A stretch of 64,000 bases of DNA from assembly GCA_003149065.1 (NCBI GenBank), contig QGFZ01000001.1:806001-870000 (forward strand), in the 5' to 3' direction. Positions 33,183-52,652 of this stretch are shown one piece after another (position 1 is the stretch's first letter; every line of letters starts with the position of its first letter). The position numbers and the translations under genes were made by a program. The stretch comes from Ruminococcaceae bacterium R-25 (lineage in GTDB: Bacteria; Bacillota; Clostridia; Saccharofermentanales; Saccharofermentanaceae). The notes under the pieces were generated by a model, which saw nothing but the letters and a program-made list of their open reading frames with translations, had not been told where the DNA came from and searched no databases.

Positions 33183-33533
33183 ATTAATCCCTCTATTCTA
33201 ATTAAATAAAAAATATTATATCGCATTAAACGGCTAAATGAATGGTATCAAAATATACCCGGAAATTACTGATGCCTGAACATATAGTTGCGTGTAGGTT
33301 TTTTCAGAGCTTTTTTGCGGGCTTTTGTCGGTTCCTTGCAGTTTTTTGTCGGAAACGAGCTGTCTTTGTAGGTTTTTCAGCGGAATCTTGTCGGTTTTGC
33401 TTGTCGGATTTCAAAGGTTTTGTCGGCCCGGACAGCAAGATATAAGTCAGATTTCAAAAGTTTAGTCGGCTCGGACAGCATGCTATAAACTGAACAAAAG
33501 CTACCAACTAACAATCGATACCACCTCAACAAT
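33183..33533. repeat. Intergenic region with irregular GTCGG repeats
   Basis: The gap between tldD and the acyl-CoA ligase (386 bp) has no credible gene. From 33318 to 33475 the string (T)TTGTCGG recurs five times plus one TTAGTCGG variant, always after a T-run. At the right end a 43-bp direct repeat is clear: GATTTCAAAGGTTTTGTCGG...CGGACAGCAAGATATA (from 33407) and GATTTCAAAAGTTTAGTCGG...CGGACAGCATGCTATA (from 33450). Confidence 0.7.
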
Positions 33534-44739: not shown

Positions 44740-44884
44740 AAAAACCTCCGGTCCATATCCGACCAAACAAGCGCCATAACGCGCATTTCTACCCTTAACC
44801 AATATTGATTATATCAAATATCGGACATGAATCAAAGAAATGTGATACGATGAAATTACTATATTTTCGGGGAGGGATTTGAAA

Positions 44885-45445
44885 ATGACATTAGAAGAAA
44901 GCATCGCTCTGGCAGAGAAGTTCCAAAAAGATCTTGCACAGGTAGAATCTTATGACCGCCAGATAAAAGACAACATTGCCGAAAGCAAAAAGCCAATAAC
45001 CATCAATGTAAGACGCCGTTCTATGTTCAGATACTTTTGGCCATGGATCCTCTTTTCGGGTACGCTCCTGTGTTTGGCTCAGTTTCTTGCTTTGATCATC
45101 ATGACCAAGAAGCCTGAGCTCTTAACTCTCGTAACCATACTCGCATGGGCTATCCCCATAGGGTTACTGATCCTAGGTATCGTGATATCAAAGAAGAAAG
45201 CCAAGGAAGACAACGGAGCATATGAGATCGCCAAAGATATGGCAGAAGAAAAACGCGTCAACCTACTAGAACAGAGCAAAGAACTTGTATCAAAGAAAAG
45301 TCAGTTAGAGTTTCAGTTAGCAGCCAATCCTAATTTTGTACTGATCCCAGAAGACAAACGCAAGAGTTCATCGATGGCAAGAGCCAAGCTCTTCCTTCAG
45401 TCCGGCAAAGCAACCGACTTCGAGGACGCAATGAAAAAGGTCTGA
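44885..45445 (+). CDS. Small membrane protein with two TM helices and a coiled tail
   Basis: ATG 44885 follows GGGGAGGG at 8 nt; an upstream TTG adds two residues. The 186 residues comprise an N-terminal helix (EESIALAEKFQKDLAQVESYDRQI), two membrane segments (about 52-75 and 81-101) ending in a basic SKKKAKE, and a helical cytoplasmic tail (KRVNLLEQSKELVSKKSQLEFQL). The last stretch, SSMARAKLFLQSGKATDFEDAMKKV, resembles a short amphipathic helix. No family recognised. It is the only plus-strand protein gene between 1 and 52 kb, and the first 64-bp repeat array follows its stop. Confidence 0.7.
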   Translation: MTLEESIALAEKFQKDLAQVESYDRQIKDNIAESKKPITINVRRRSMFRYFWPWILFSGTLLCLAQFLALIIMTKKPELLTLVTILAWAIPIGLLILGIVISKKKAKEDNGAYEIAKDMAEEKRVNLLEQSKELVSKKSQLEFQLAANPNFVLIPEDKRKSSSMARAKLFLQSGKATDFEDAMKKV

Positions 45446-45461
45446 TTCTCTAGTGCAAAGT

Positions 45462-45702
45462 CGGCTAAACGGACGGCTATAGCCGTTCAAAATACCGTCC
45501 AAATAAGCTAAAACAGTAAAAGTGACGGCTAAACGGACGGCTATAGCCGCTCAAATTACCGCCTAAATAAGCTAAAACAGCAAAAGCGACGGCTAAACGG
45601 ACGGCTATAGCCGTTCAAATTACCGCCCAAATAAGCTAAAACAGCAAAAGCGACGGCTAAACGGACGGCTATAGCCGCTCAAATTACCGCCCAATCAAGC
45701 TA
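45462..45702. repeat. Tandem array A: 64-bp repeat, about 3.8 copies
   Basis: Units begin CGGCTAAACGG at 45462, 45526, 45590 and 45654, exactly 64 bp apart and differing at only a few bases. Each holds the perfect palindrome CGGCTATAGCCG, then (C/T)TCAAA(A/T)TACCG, AATAAGCTAAAACAG and (C/T)AAAAG(C/T)GA. There are no unique spacers. The array fills a convergent gap between the plus-strand membrane gene and the lipoprotein at 45732. Confidence 0.95.
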
Positions 45703-45725
45703 AAGGCTGCCCTAGAGCAGCCTTT
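45702..45725. terminator. Hairpin between convergent genes
   Basis: AAAGGCTGC-CCTAGA-GCAGCCTTT is a perfect 9-bp stem at the end of array A, 7 bp before the lipoprotein stop. It could terminate the plus-strand transcript (GCCATTTTAT follows) and, less clearly, the minus-strand one. Confidence 0.65.
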
Positions 45726-45731
45726 GCCATT

Positions 45732-46187
45732 TTATACGTCTCCTGAATTTCCCGTTCGTCTTAAGAATACCTCGAGATCCACCGCTTCGCCTTCAAAGTT
45801 CCTTCCGACAGCGGTATTACGGTCTACTATATACCACTCAATAACAGTTCTGTGGCCGGGATCGCCCTCTGCTTCGTTGCCTTGAACATCTTCGTATATA
45901 CAGATGTAGACTGTATCACCTTCAACATGATCTATTGCAACGTTCGGACACTTCTCGCCTGTACAGAATTCATAGTAAGTAGCGGCCCAAGTAACCAGCT
46001 GTTCGTCCGTGTAGCCCTCTCCTTCAGTTTTCGCAGATGTATCTTCAACAGGTACATCGATCACAGCATTTTCACTAGCAACAGATTCTGAATCAGCTTT
46101 TGAAACCGCCGTTTTATTCCCGCCTGCACAGCCTGTCGCGGACAAAATCATACCCGCGCACAATATTGCAATTATAGATTTTTTCAT
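45732..46187 (-). CDS. Lipoprotein of unknown function
   Basis: The 151 residues begin with a lipoprotein signal ending SATGC (Cys20), then a Ser/Thr/acidic linker and a C-terminal domain: YTDEQLVTWAATYYEFCTG, VAIDHVEGDTVYICIYEDV, TVIEWYIVDRNTAVGRNFEG and EAVDLEVFL. The same order of segments recurs in the protein at 46359-46871, so the two are paralogues. The domain resembles small extracellular alpha-beta proteins common in clostridia, but I have no family name. It is exported and membrane-anchored. Confidence 0.75.
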   Translation of the reverse strand: MKKSIIAILCAGMILSATGCAGGNKTAVSKADSESVASENAVIDVPVEDTSAKTEGEGYTDEQLVTWAATYYEFCTGEKCPNVAIDHVEGDTVYICIYEDVQGNEAEGDPGHRTVIEWYIVDRNTAVGRNFEGEAVDLEVFLRRTGNSGDV

Positions 46188-47841: not shown

Positions 47842-47912
47842 CTTATCCCTCCGTGAATTATTAGAGAGATTATAACATCAAATTAGTGATGACTCTTTAT
47901 TGTTCCCCAAAA

Positions 47913-47994
47913 CCTATATAATCGTACTGCCAGTTCGATTTTGTCGGTTTTCGCGAAAAAACTCCTAAAATCGAACTCAGAGTACGATTATAGG
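47913..47994. repeat. Long palindromic element, copy 1
   Basis: Arms TATAATCGTACT...GTTCGATTTT (within 47913-47942) and AAAATCGAAC...AGTACGATTATA (47967-47992) pair except for a 4-5 nt internal loop. GTCGGTTTT follows the left arm. The element fills the gap between the ABC permease stop and the hydrolase start. A closely similar, inverted copy is at 55641-55722. Confidence 0.9.
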
Positions 47995-48027
47995 AGTTTC
48001 AGAGTACTATTAGTTTTCTGGCTGAAA

Positions 48028-49945: not shown

Positions 49946-50386
49946 TTATTCTTCGTCCCTGATGTCGTCTAACGCCTTATTTATCTTGTTGTCGTCGCGC
50001 TTGTGGAACCACAGTGATACGACCCATACGAAAATATAAACAGCAAAGTAGATAATGCTCATGAAAATGAATCCGTCAATCTTTGTGTACCATTTGAACA
50101 CGAGCCCGAAAAGGCTGACGATCGCATAAAGCCCGATGCAGTGAAGCACTATACGGACGATATACTTATTCTTAGGCATATCAGTATCCATAAGCCAGAT
50201 CACAGTCGGCAGCGAGCATACTGCGCCAGTCAGAACGATCGAAACCATCTGGAGCCAGTCCATCTTGAATTCATATAAGGGATCACCGCCAAAGACCGTA
50301 TAGCAAAGGCCTTCGATTATTATTCCGACGAGGATCGCAAAAGAGATCATCATTGTCTGTTCGAGCCAGAGCTTAAACTTGTTCAT
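49946..50386 (-). CDS. DUF3021 family membrane protein
   Basis: The 146 residues have four membrane helices with short loops (IILFAILVGII-like 14-30, MVSIVLTGAVCSLPTVIWL, IVRIVLHCIGLYAIVSLFGLVF, FIFMSIIYFAVYIFVWVVSLW) and a charged end. This matches DUF3021, which is nearly always paired with a LytTR gene. It overlaps the LytTR gene by 4 bp. In such pairs the membrane protein is thought to restrain the LytTR regulator (membrane inhibitor), although this is not shown here. Confidence 0.85.
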   Translation of the reverse strand: MNKFKLWLEQTMMISFAILVGIIIEGLCYTVFGGDPLYEFKMDWLQMVSIVLTGAVCSLPTVIWLMDTDMPKNKYIVRIVLHCIGLYAIVSLFGLVFKWYTKIDGFIFMSIIYFAVYIFVWVVSLWFHKRDDNKINKALDDIRDEE

Positions 50387-50820
50387 CCTATTCCGAGCCT
50401 CCTCTTAACTTCCTTTACATATCCTCTCGAAATGACGACGACTTCGTCGTTTAAGAGCGTTGCGTCGATCCTTCCGGAGATCTGGGACTTAACATTACGG
50501 ACCTTCTTGAGGTTGATAATCATGGACTTGGAGCAACGCATGAAATAGCCGCCGAGCATGACTTCAAGCTCATAAAGCCTGTATTTACAGTCATAGCAGC
50601 CTTGCTTGGTATAAACGAAAGTCTTCTTGTCGACGGATTCGATATAGTAAACGTTCGACGCCTTAATTATGTAGGTCTTCCCGTCCTTACTGACAGCAAA
50701 GCCTTTCGCGTCGCCCTCTAAGAGCTCTATAGCGCCTGAGATCTCATCAGTTATCTCGACCGCTCTTATTACGGCCTGCTCCTGCTCTTTGGAATCTACT
50801 TTCTCGATATGGACCTGCAT
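50383..50820 (-). CDS. LytTR-type transcriptional regulator (stand-alone)
   Basis: The 145 residues lack a response-regulator receiver domain. Residues 35-145 are a LytTR DNA-binding domain: GKTYIIKASNVYYIESVDKKTFVYTKQG, YRLYELEVML, FMRCSKSMIINLKKVRNV and LNDEVVVISRGYVKEVKRRLG. With DUF3021 and the ABC genes it forms a four-gene unit that probably controls itself. AGGAGCG precedes the ATG. Confidence 0.92.
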   Translation of the reverse strand: MQVHIEKVDSKEQEQAVIRAVEITDEISGAIELLEGDAKGFAVSKDGKTYIIKASNVYYIESVDKKTFVYTKQGCYDCKYRLYELEVMLGGYFMRCSKSMIINLKKVRNVKSQISGRIDATLLNDEVVVISRGYVKEVKRRLGIG

Positions 50821-50848
50821 TTGGCGCTCCTGTTCTTTATCCGCAAAG

Positions 50849-50857
50849 ATTATAGCA
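50849..50857 (-). promoter_or_regulatory. Extended -10 promoter of the LytTR operon
   Basis: On the minus strand TGCTATAAT is an extended -10 element 29 bp before the LytTR start. A good -35 is lacking. It lies back-to-back with the tRNA promoter. Confidence 0.55.
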
Positions 50858-50875
50858 GATTCGCGGGCTTTGAAA

Positions 50876-50904
50876 TTGACAAAGAATAGTCACTTTAATA
50901 TAAT
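50876..50904 (+). promoter_or_regulatory. Consensus promoter of tRNA-Leu
   Basis: TTGACA (50876-50881), 17 bp, TATAAT (50899-50904): a perfect sigma-A promoter, starting transcription about 5 nt before the tRNA. Confidence 0.93.
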
Positions 50905-50915
50905 TACTTCGCTAC

Positions 50916-51000
50916 GGGGTTGTGGCGGAATGGCAGACGCAGCAGACTCAAAATCTGCCGACCATAAATCGTGTGGGTTCAAGTCCCACCAGCCCCACCA
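50916..51000 (+). tRNA. tRNA-Leu (anticodon CAA)
   Basis: The 85-nt class II tRNA folds completely: acceptor GGGGTTG/CAGCCCC, D-arm with AATGGCAGAC, anticodon stem GCAGA/TCTGC around loop CTCAAAA (anticodon CAA, reads UUG), long variable arm (CGACCATAAATCGT), T-arm GTGGG-TTCAAGT-CCCAC, discriminator A and an encoded CCA end. Confidence 0.97.
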
Positions 51001-51028
51001 AAAGCTGTCCTTATGGGCAGCTTTTTTT
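51001..51028 (+). terminator. Terminator of the tRNA-Leu gene
   Basis: AAAGCTG-T-CC / GG-G-CAGCTTT starts in the base after the CCA end and runs into a seven-T tract, an intrinsic terminator on the plus strand. Confidence 0.93.
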
Positions 51029-51036
51029 GTCCTTAA

Positions 51037-51090
51037 TCCCCAATATGGACAGCATTCCCCAATGGACGGCATTCCCCAATATGGACGGCT
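51037..51090. repeat. Short direct repeats between tRNA and array B
   Basis: CCCCAATATGGACAGCATT, CCCCAATGGACGGCATT and CCCCAATATGGACGGC follow one another at 17-19 bp. They lead directly into the first unit of array B. Confidence 0.75.
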
Positions 51091-51440
51091 GTTTGGGCGG
51101 CTACAGCCGTTCGTTTTACCGCTATTATTGCTGTTTTAGGCCGTTTGGACGGTATTTTGGGCGGCTATAGCCGTTCATTTTGCCGTCCGTTTGGCTAACA
51201 CAGGCCGTTTGGACGGTATTTTGAGCGGCTATAGCCGTTCGTTTTACCGCCATTATTGCAGTTTTAGGCCGTTTGGACGGTATTTTGAGCGGCTATAGCC
51301 GTTCGTTTTGCCGGCCATAAACACAGACCCAAAACGAATACGGCAACAGGTATGGCTACTGCCTTATTGAATACCTGATTTAAGGGCTAAAATCGAATAA
51401 AATACGGCAACCAATGCGGCTATAGCCGTATCGAATGCCG
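51091..51440. repeat. Tandem array B: 64-bp repeat, four clear plus two decayed copies
   Basis: The centre CGGCTA(T/C)AGCCG recurs at 51098, 51162, 51226 and 51290 (64-bp steps), then as decayed TGGCTACTGCC near 51353 and again intact at 51417. The unit reads GGACGGTATTTTGAG-CGGCTATAGCCG-TTCGTTTTACCGCC; GG(A)CGGTA and TACCGCC can pair around the palindrome. The reverse complement shares the palindrome and the TCAAAATACCGTCCAAA flank with array A, so the two arrays are inverted copies of one family. It lies between tRNA-Leu and the convergent hydrolase gene, and no gene is seen in these 443 bp. Confidence 0.93.
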
Positions 51441-51471
51441 TATCGAAAATAAAAAACCAATCAGAAAAAAT

Positions 51472-52452
51472 TCACGCAGCCTCAGCGTCAGAAGCAGCTT
51501 CGCCCACTACTCCGGCCGCATCCAAAAAAGCACCGATCTTGTCGCGGTACGCGTCCTTACCTGCAACGTCACGAGCCTTGGCATGTGAAGCGCCGGGTAC
51601 GATCCAGAGTTCTGAATGTGCGTGCTTCTGTGCTTCATCGTACATATCCATGCTGTTGTCAATGTCGATCCAGTCATCGTCGCCGCCGTGAACAAACAGG
51701 ACAGGAACATTTCGAAGCTTCATAGCCTCAATAGCGTTTATTTCACCGGTATCGATTCCGTATAAAAGCTTAAAACCGATATCAGCACAGTAACCGAACG
51801 GGTTAAGATGCATGTCGTTATACATGTCGTGAAGCATATACTTAAGACTCTCGAAACCGCAGTCGGAAACAACAAAATCGACTTTATCCGTATAGCGGAG
51901 TACGTTCAGAGATGCTAAAGATCCCATAGACTCGCCCTGCAGGCCTAAAACAGATACATCTCCAAACCTCGAAAAAGTATCTTCAATAAGACAATTCAGA
52001 TCCAGTGACTCATATCCTCCCATAGTGCATATAGACGATGCATTGGCTCCATGGCCTCTAAGATCGTAAATAATGCAGGTAAACCCAAGCTCGATGTAAG
52101 GATCGACGAACTTAACAACTCCGTATTTGTTGCTCTTGTGTCCATGGGAGATGATGACGTATTTACCCGTACCGCGGGTTGTTTCAGAAACAACAGATGT
52201 TACATGGAGCTCATAGTCCTGATAGCACTTAACAATATAATCTTCCTTATCATAAGAGTCGTATCCGCCCCACATGCCGGCTTCCTTGGTATAGTCCTCT
52301 CTGTCCTGATAAGATTCGCGCTTGGGATGCGTGATAGATATGGTAGTTCCGACGGCTGCACCTATGAGATTCAGCACAATAAAGACAGCAATAGATATAA
52401 GGATTATCTTAAAAACCTTTTTCTTATTGACCGGTTTTCGAGCTTTGGACAT
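51472..52452 (-). CDS. Membrane-anchored alpha/beta hydrolase (paralogue)
   Basis: ATG 52452 (GGGGTGA upstream) gives 326 residues. A membrane helix (FKIILISIAVFIVLNLIGAAVG) is followed by the hydrolase domain: YVIISHGHKSNKYGVVKFV, CIIYDLRGHGANASS, nucleophile elbow LGLQGESMGSLASLN, VPVLFVHGGDDDWIDIDN (Asp) and PGASHAKARDVAG (His). Strand order and the GLQGESMGS elbow match the protein at 46918-47841, so they are paralogues of a clostridial family often annotated as lysophospholipase or dienelactone-hydrolase-like. Array B lies just beyond its stop. Confidence 0.85.
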   Translation of the reverse strand: MSKARKPVNKKKVFKIILISIAVFIVLNLIGAAVGTTISITHPKRESYQDREDYTKEAGMWGGYDSYDKEDYIVKCYQDYELHVTSVVSETTRGTGKYVIISHGHKSNKYGVVKFVDPYIELGFTCIIYDLRGHGANASSICTMGGYESLDLNCLIEDTFSRFGDVSVLGLQGESMGSLASLNVLRYTDKVDFVVSDCGFESLKYMLHDMYNDMHLNPFGYCADIGFKLLYGIDTGEINAIEAMKLRNVPVLFVHGGDDDWIDIDNSMDMYDEAQKHAHSELWIVPGASHAKARDVAGKDAYRDKIGAFLDAAGVVGEAASDAEAA

Positions 52453-52652
52453 ATAAATCACCCCATATATTTACTATAAATAAGTATAGCAAATTAAAGT
52501 GAAAATCATTCTACCTTGTTGGGTATGTTTTTAGACTAATATCGACAATTCTCAAACAAAACTGACGCAAAAACACGAAAAATTTCAACACTATTTCAGG
52601 ATTAAAGTTATATAATTACGTTGTTAAATTTTAAGGAAAGAGGTTACCGATT

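Follow-up and report, generated by a model that had tools for sequence, protein, structure and literature searches.

What kind of element is the series of palindromic repeats that separates a tRNA-Leu gene from an alpha/beta hydrolase gene in the genome of Ruminococcaceae bacterium R-25, and why does it keep a period of 64 bp? The window, i.e. the whole stretch of 64,000 nucleotides analyzed here, contains this series (array B) and a related one (array A). Array B is a member of a family of tandem arrays that are scattered over intergenic sites in one genus of Clostridia. According to the reading which we favour, and to which we assign a probability of roughly 0.4 based on the sequences, the arrays would be DNA with dyad symmetry whose helical phasing is under selection, perhaps because a protein that bends or wraps DNA uses them as a platform.

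Arrays A and B in the window

In array B, copies of the 12-bp core CGGCTATAGCCG, identical or with one difference, begin at positions 51098, 51162, 51226, 51290 and 51417, the fifth unit is recognizable by a weaker core (GGCTACTGCC) at 51354, and the 64-bp phase is unbroken over all six units (Table 1). A preceding sequence-only reading had described this phase correctly, while the positions which it listed as palindrome centres (51098, 51162 etc.) are where the cores start, with the dyads about 5.5 bp further along. Its fifth unit, "about 51353 (decayed)", is likewise in phase and not simply decayed, as units 5 and 6 belong to a second subfamily with the pattern ATACGGCA...CGGC..GCCG..TGCCGTAT. 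Second-subfamily units in 64-bp phase are also present at five further loci of the same genome (L010, L012, L013, L015 and L018). At L013 (3526-3692), a third type of repeat, GCAAAAGTCGGGCACTGCCCGATT-like and with a 63-bp period, lies beside them.

Table 1. Coordinates of the features in the window and of tandem repeats with other periods at loci of relatives
Feature	Position	Strand	Remark
ORF without Pfam match, stop just ahead of array A	44879..45445	+	
Array A, four 64-bp units, subfamily I, forward orientation	45448..45703	+	
Small ORF without Pfam match, faces array A from the right	45732..46187	-	
tRNA-Leu (CAA), left neighbour of array B	50916..51000	+	
Terminator-like hairpin AAGCTGTC..GGGCAGCTTTTTTT in the gap between tRNA-Leu and array B	51002..51029	+	by eye
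17-bp tandem, TCCCCAATATGGACGGCAT-like, about 3 copies, abuts array B on the left	51037..51089	+	
Array B proper, four 64-bp units, subfamily I	51072..51327	-	tetrads GGC-N9-GGC-N4-GCC-N9-(G/A)CC
Two further units, second subfamily (ATACGGCA...), in phase with array B	51328..51455	.	
Alpha/beta hydrolase gene, right neighbour of array B	51472..52461	-	
Other-period tandem repeat of a relative, L101	1150-1410		
Other-period tandem repeat of a relative, L112	2470-2595		
Other-period tandem repeat of a relative, L135	2205-2445		
Other-period tandem repeat of a relative, L136	1938-2066		
Other-period tandem repeat of a relative, L140	1985-2170		
Other-period tandem repeat of a relative, L142	1925-2065		

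TRF called a period of 64 for both array A (45462-45704, 93% matches) and array B (51092-51318, 83% matches); as the whole unit including the linker repeats and there are no unique spacers, a CRISPR array was rejected. The proposal that B is an inverted relative of A was confirmed: the reverse-complemented units of B carry CGGCTATAGCCG and TCAAAATACCGTCCAAA as in array A, and the two arrays form inverted-repeat arms of 106 bp with 83% complementarity. It had further been suggested that both arrays could recombine and invert the 45.7-51.1 kb segment. This inversion is not supported: all matches to 44.0-54.6 kb in the two relatives examined, G002 and G064, keep the orientation of the window, and A and reverse-complemented B have no identical run longer than 19 bp in common. 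One stray inverted match of 93 bp in G002 stems from about 55.6 kb, outside the A-B segment.

Several further observations were made in this region. The orientation of the tRNA-Leu relative to the neighbouring LytTR gene (window 50383-51000) is as in the window in G002, G064, G066 and G015, and opposite in G010, G060, G069, G007, G082, G001 and G019, which reflects a local inversion or relocation. An imperfect, TAATCGTACTGCCAGTTCGATTTT-like inverted repeat at 47899-48010 recalls, by eye, a repeat family of the relatives (L136, L140, L142).

Distribution and turnover of the array family

Within the own genome (G000, 3.07 Mb), 13 array loci were listed, A and B included. A 16-base core pattern with up to two mismatches matched 27 times forward and 28 times reverse, compared to 11 and 7 matches of the backward-read pattern, and many of these matches were grouped at 64-bp spacing; both the excess and the grouping show that they are not due to chance. 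The same groups were recovered by a sequence model built from 30 units. Across 20 arbitrarily placed 20-kb stretches of this genome together with the window, the two arrays of the window were the only matches to a 64-bp period (65% threshold), and the arrays are therefore few and discrete.

The ORF-based gene context suggests that the arrays sit between genes; since ORFs of at least 70 aa overlap some of them, we do not claim this position for every array. Among 46 arrays (44 with two called neighbours), 30 were flanked by co-directional, 8 by convergent and 6 by divergent genes, compared to 118, 25 and 33 of 176 background gaps of at least 40 bp. The ORF calling ignored tRNAs and small genes: some divergent calls are wrong, and array B was counted as co-directional because tRNAs are absent from the calls. 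With 8/44 arrays versus 25/176 background gaps between convergent genes there is no enrichment, and a general role at such sites is not supported; for the two arrays, the sequence-only reading had considered it possible that they insulate or end convergent transcription.

The sequence model matched 13/85 genomes of the genus, including the own one, at an E value of 0.001 or better, and a minority of the species in this one Clostridia genus carries the family. Arrays of the relatives are spelled with other letters and share the plan GGC-N9-GGC-N3/4-GCC-N9-GCC plus 64 bp, with single arrays showing a period of 59, 63 or 65. The tetrad with a 3-base loop is enriched in part of the genus (forward matches: 74 in G010, 53 in G072, 39 in G066 and 32 in G060; backward control 0 in each), and yielded 0-2 matches versus 0-7 in the control in 30 genomes from other genera of the family. 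A pattern of two units spaced at 64 bp was found in 12/188 genomes of the order, all belonging to 1/30 genera (control: one match in one genome), and in 1/391 genomes of a class sample, again of the same genus. The own genome scores 0 here because the pattern requires 3-base loops, while its loops mostly have 4 bases. When named genomes were scanned for pairs of GGCTATAGCC cores at a distance of 64 bp, with records of the own genome possibly left out, 10 stretches were returned. Nine of them lie in MAGs titled Clostridiales, Clostridia or Ruminococcaceae, three of these from sheep omasum, and the tenth is a REP-like pair in a Halomonadaceae MAG. On a one-gene tree of 24 genomes, in which 9/21 inner branches are open, the carriers cluster but do not form one clade (2 changes versus a shuffled mean of 8.2; 0/500 shuffles as low as 2). 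A literature search of openly licensed papers, covering titles and abstract beginnings, did not find the 64-bp array family.

This Halomonadaceae MAG (L093, 637-710) harbours a pair of GCGGCTATAGCCGC palindromes at 64-bp distance, which looks like an ordinary REP pair of the Pseudomonas type; its match is regarded as a coincidence.

Next, arrays at shared sites were compared between relatives. At two sites, the difference between G066 and G072 amounts to exactly 192 bp (3x64) and 128 bp (2x64), respectively; between these two relatives, the arrays change by whole units, which supports the earlier interpretation of array B. At another site, G009 and G060 differ by 240 bp, which is no multiple of 64; judging by eye, this site has also gained or lost a block from a different subfamily. 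Five more sites common to two to four genomes, drawn from loci fetched for holding arrays, differ in subfamily or copy number. A fairer sampling than such array-chosen loci is provided by locus 1, where the comparison was anchored on a flanking gene (G072 gave no match to this gene, G046 a short and G008 a partial one; G055 was excluded). At this locus, G000, G002, G009, G010 and G060 carry arrays, and there is no 64-bp array in G064, G007, G069, G054, G066 and G082, with other repeats present in the gap of G066 and G082. The same gap in 12 non-carriers showed no 64-bp array by eye and in a period scan.

The B site is occupied by two units of another subfamily in G002 and by none in G064, and the A site holds no array in either relative. 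As G064 lacks arrays at A, B and locus 1 and G002 lacks one at A, array occupancy is not obligatory. At the empty B site and locus 1 of G064 the flanks have diverged, and no target-site duplication, as a MITE or transposon with defined ends would leave, was obvious by eye. At most loci of the own genome, the subfamily differs from that found in relatives at the orthologous site. In the draft genomes of relatives, some arrays are located no more than about 110 bp from the end of a contig (e.g. G066:C17, G066:C36, G072:C55 and G064:C8).

Quite different tandem repeats are also found between genes of the relatives, some of them in the same gaps; their periods are 50, 55, 62, 65 and 72 bp (Table 1). 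By eye, the 72-bp family of G015 follows the same right-right-left-left plan of half-sites in 12-bp steps.

Unit geometry, helical phase and predicted curvature

Each 64-bp unit consists of a dyad-symmetric tetrad of half-sites and a linker of about 30 bp. Overall, 325 tetrad matches were collected in 15 genomes (at most one mismatch in 12 bases), taken from loci picked for holding arrays and including some single matches that may be chance. Tetrads that neighbour each other within 140 bp form 222 pairs, of which 153 are spaced at exactly 64.0 bp centre to centre. Where both tetrads have 3-base loops (144 pairs), the spacing is 64 bp in 114, 63 in 8, 41-61 in 20 and above 100 in 2; for two 4-base loops (46 pairs), it is 64 in 39, 65 in 2, 63 in 1 and 128 in 2, with 49 and 53 occurring once each. 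The 31 mixed-loop pairs and one 5-base-loop pair range from 50.5 to 129.5, and G012 shows a spacing of 63 bp. Since pairs with 3-base and with 4-base loops both come to 64 bp, the linker makes up for the loop, a compensation that may reflect very few events, one or two. The earlier observation that the phase is kept despite drift of the sequence thus holds over many divergent subfamilies in 15 genomes.

The half-sites of one unit are alike in both the direct and the inverted sense. A dyad that is recognised by a protein should show this, but homogenisation within the unit could also yield it. When nested and interleaved pairing of half-sites were compared, all six half-site pairs resembled each other and only 8/79 clusters gave information, of which three favoured interleaved and one nested pairing and four were ties.

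A length of 64 bp corresponds to approximately six helical turns. Segments rich in G+C take turns with segments rich in A/T at intervals of 10.67 bp, once per turn and six times per unit, and they do so in the linkers as well. For this analysis, the 153 units with a next unit at 64 bp were grouped at 75% identity into 35 clusters, which are not independent of one another. The G+C power at the sixth harmonic (64/6 = 10.67 bp) was 1.88 versus 0.25 in shuffles (z 39), and 10.67 bp was the strongest of 16 harmonics in 32/35 clusters. Because the tetrad itself contributes to this signal, the linkers were tested alone; they are in phase in 35/35 clusters, with a z of 15.6 versus shuffles within the linker.

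Predicted curvature was calculated with De Santis-type and Bolshoy parameters in overlapping windows. Above the 95th percentile of the genome were 204/209 array windows with the former and 127/209 with the latter. De Santis-type predictions make B and A the second and third peaks of the whole 64,000-nucleotide window, with 0.5% of genome windows reaching their means. In the Bolshoy predictions, array B is ordinary (mean 1.093, reached by 39% of genome windows), array A stands out little (mean 1.157, reached by 14%), and the peak at the left edge of array A ranks fourth in the window. The two models disagree on array B. The strongest predicted peak of the window, at about 33340 in both models, lies beside a 43-bp tandem repeat at 33387-33532.

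Spacings at junctions cluster near 41, 51 and 61 bp, an outcome which depends on the threshold used for grouping: the groups were first typed by eye, then formed automatically at 40% and then at 20-35%. With a free period, strict grouping at 20% and 25% was equalled in 0/1000 and 16/1000 simulations, and loose grouping at 30%, 35% and 40% in 191/1000, 611/1000 and 1997/2000. With the period fixed at 10.5 bp, the numbers were 0, 2, 15 and 157 of 5000 for 20, 25, 30 and 35% grouping.

Possible explanations: shape selection, passive amplification or RNA

If the arrays are maintained for their helical phasing, selection would act on the geometry of the duplex, i.e. on in-phase bending combined with a repeated dyad, which recurs on nearly the same helix face every six turns. 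An array could then serve as a phased platform for a putative nucleoid protein, or for a protein that recognises the half-sites as a dimer or tetramer, and this platform would set local bending and supercoiling in the intergenic gap. The number of units might be tuned through slippage or unequal exchange, and copies at separate loci may be homogenised by recombination. The protein, the bending and any effect on neighbouring genes are inferred. This reading draws on the constant period, the phased linkers, the predicted curvature, the likeness of the half-sites, the whole-unit differences between G066 and G072, the junction spacings and the presence of the two-unit pattern in 1/30 genera of the order. 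Points against it are the Bolshoy predictions for A and B, the loss of the junction clustering under loose grouping, the variable occupancy, the 63-bp spacing in G012 and the strong RNA folding. As all subfamilies may share one ancestral unit, period and phasing were possibly inherited and not selected.

The latter is the core of the strongest competing explanation, a passive or selfish REP-like palindromic satellite that spreads and amplifies in gaps without doing harm, in which 64 bp would derive from one ancestor plus homogenisation and the shape would be without function. We consider this a serious contender, though it falls clearly short of even odds. Such an origin is consistent with the mosaics in which blocks of different subfamilies abut, the differing subfamilies at orthologous sites, the variable occupancy between close species, the occupation of the same gaps by repeat families of other periods in some relatives, the whole-unit differences between G066 and G072, and the dependence among clusters. 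However, it does not account well for linkers which are phased in 35/35 clusters though they differ widely by eye, or for units with 3-base and 4-base loops that both total 64 bp. Eukaryotic satellite DNA likewise keeps a constant unit length while subfamilies turn over and amplify locally, but the arrays described here are bacterial, short (2-9 tetrads in the loci read) and spread over many intergenic sites.

REP and BIME sequences with GTAG or CGTC tags have been described as extragenic palindromes of 20-40 bp, often clustered and of several types per genome, which lie mostly downstream of genes and may form large clusters of tandemly reiterated units or dimers; links to supercoiling and RNA ends have been proposed for them (PMC3733652). 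The arrays resemble these REPs in being short extragenic palindromes with many copies (13 loci in G000; 325 tetrads in 15 genomes), in their location and in their mosaicism, whereas the strict head-to-tail period of 64 bp, the helically phased linkers and the half-site tetrad are features of the arrays. Within 10 bases outside the outer GGC/GCC, the GTAG tag was found in 0/153 units and CGTC in 1/153. The Y1 transposase (RAYT, PF01797), the usual mobiliser of GTAG-REPs, was detected in 0/12 carriers, several of which are only 77-89% complete, compared to 3/13 other genomes and 5/14 control genomes. Mobilisation by a RAYT is thereby rejected or at least weakened, and with practically no tag in addition, membership in the tagged REP class is unsupported. 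The result on the Y1 transposase also speaks against the passive satellite. Overall, we judge selection on duplex geometry slightly likelier.

Other known repeats share single traits with the arrays. Stem-loop repeats of bacterial genomes such as Bor, Ype and Efa are intergenic and biased to the 3' ends of genes, and some form repeat families (PMC1590033); the words "tandem" and "periodic" are absent from that text, in contrast to the 64-bp arrays. Helically phased A-tracts in prokaryotic chromosomes have been linked by the authors to nucleoid compaction and bridging proteins (PMC3940949). A/T runs in helix phase are common to both; the A-tracts, however, are described there as a genome-wide statistical signal, whereas here the signal is concentrated in separate tandem arrays, which have dyads and a unit of fixed length.

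It is rather improbable that the arrays are RNA elements, transcribed from the upstream gene, whose hairpins protect or end the transcript. The folding z of A and B ranges from -5.1 to -11.2 on both strands, z is below -2 in 54/70 single inverted-repeat strands, and many authors regard REPs as RNA elements (PMC3733652); given these strong z-scores, such a role keeps some likelihood. On the other hand, several arrays are preceded by what, by eye, looks like a terminator hairpin, and pairing is consistent at the GGC/GCC steps only: outside them, spacers pair in 17-60% and outer flanks in 51-69% of the 35 clusters. A hairpin requires neither a 64-bp period nor phased linkers. At the gathering score of Rfam 15, the tRNA-Leu was the only match in the window, and in a relaxed search all matches of arrays A and B remained below 40% of that score, by which a known Rfam RNA was rejected. 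Insulation of convergent genes or inversion of the 45.7-51.1 kb segment by paired arrays, which had been suggested by the inverted relationship of A and B and their position between a plus-strand and a minus-strand gene each, is highly improbable in view of the collinear relatives, the short exact match and the gene context reported above.

Returning to selection on duplex geometry, its most far-reaching form, which we regard as doubtful at present, would be a bacterial satellite in which geometry and not sequence is inherited and selected, forming a pre-bent platform read by a putative clade-specific protein. If this is true, dyads every six turns and phased linkers would persist while the letters are rewritten between species and the shape is kept, and the function would be comparable to that of nucleosome-positioning arrays, setting local supercoiling between genes. 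Intergenic palindromes of bacteria are usually ascribed to transposases or RNA hairpins, and neither fits these arrays cleanly. If confirmed, the family would offer a natural, replicated test of DNA-shape selection at defined sites of bacterial chromosomes, and the array itself would be the bait for the protein that reads it.
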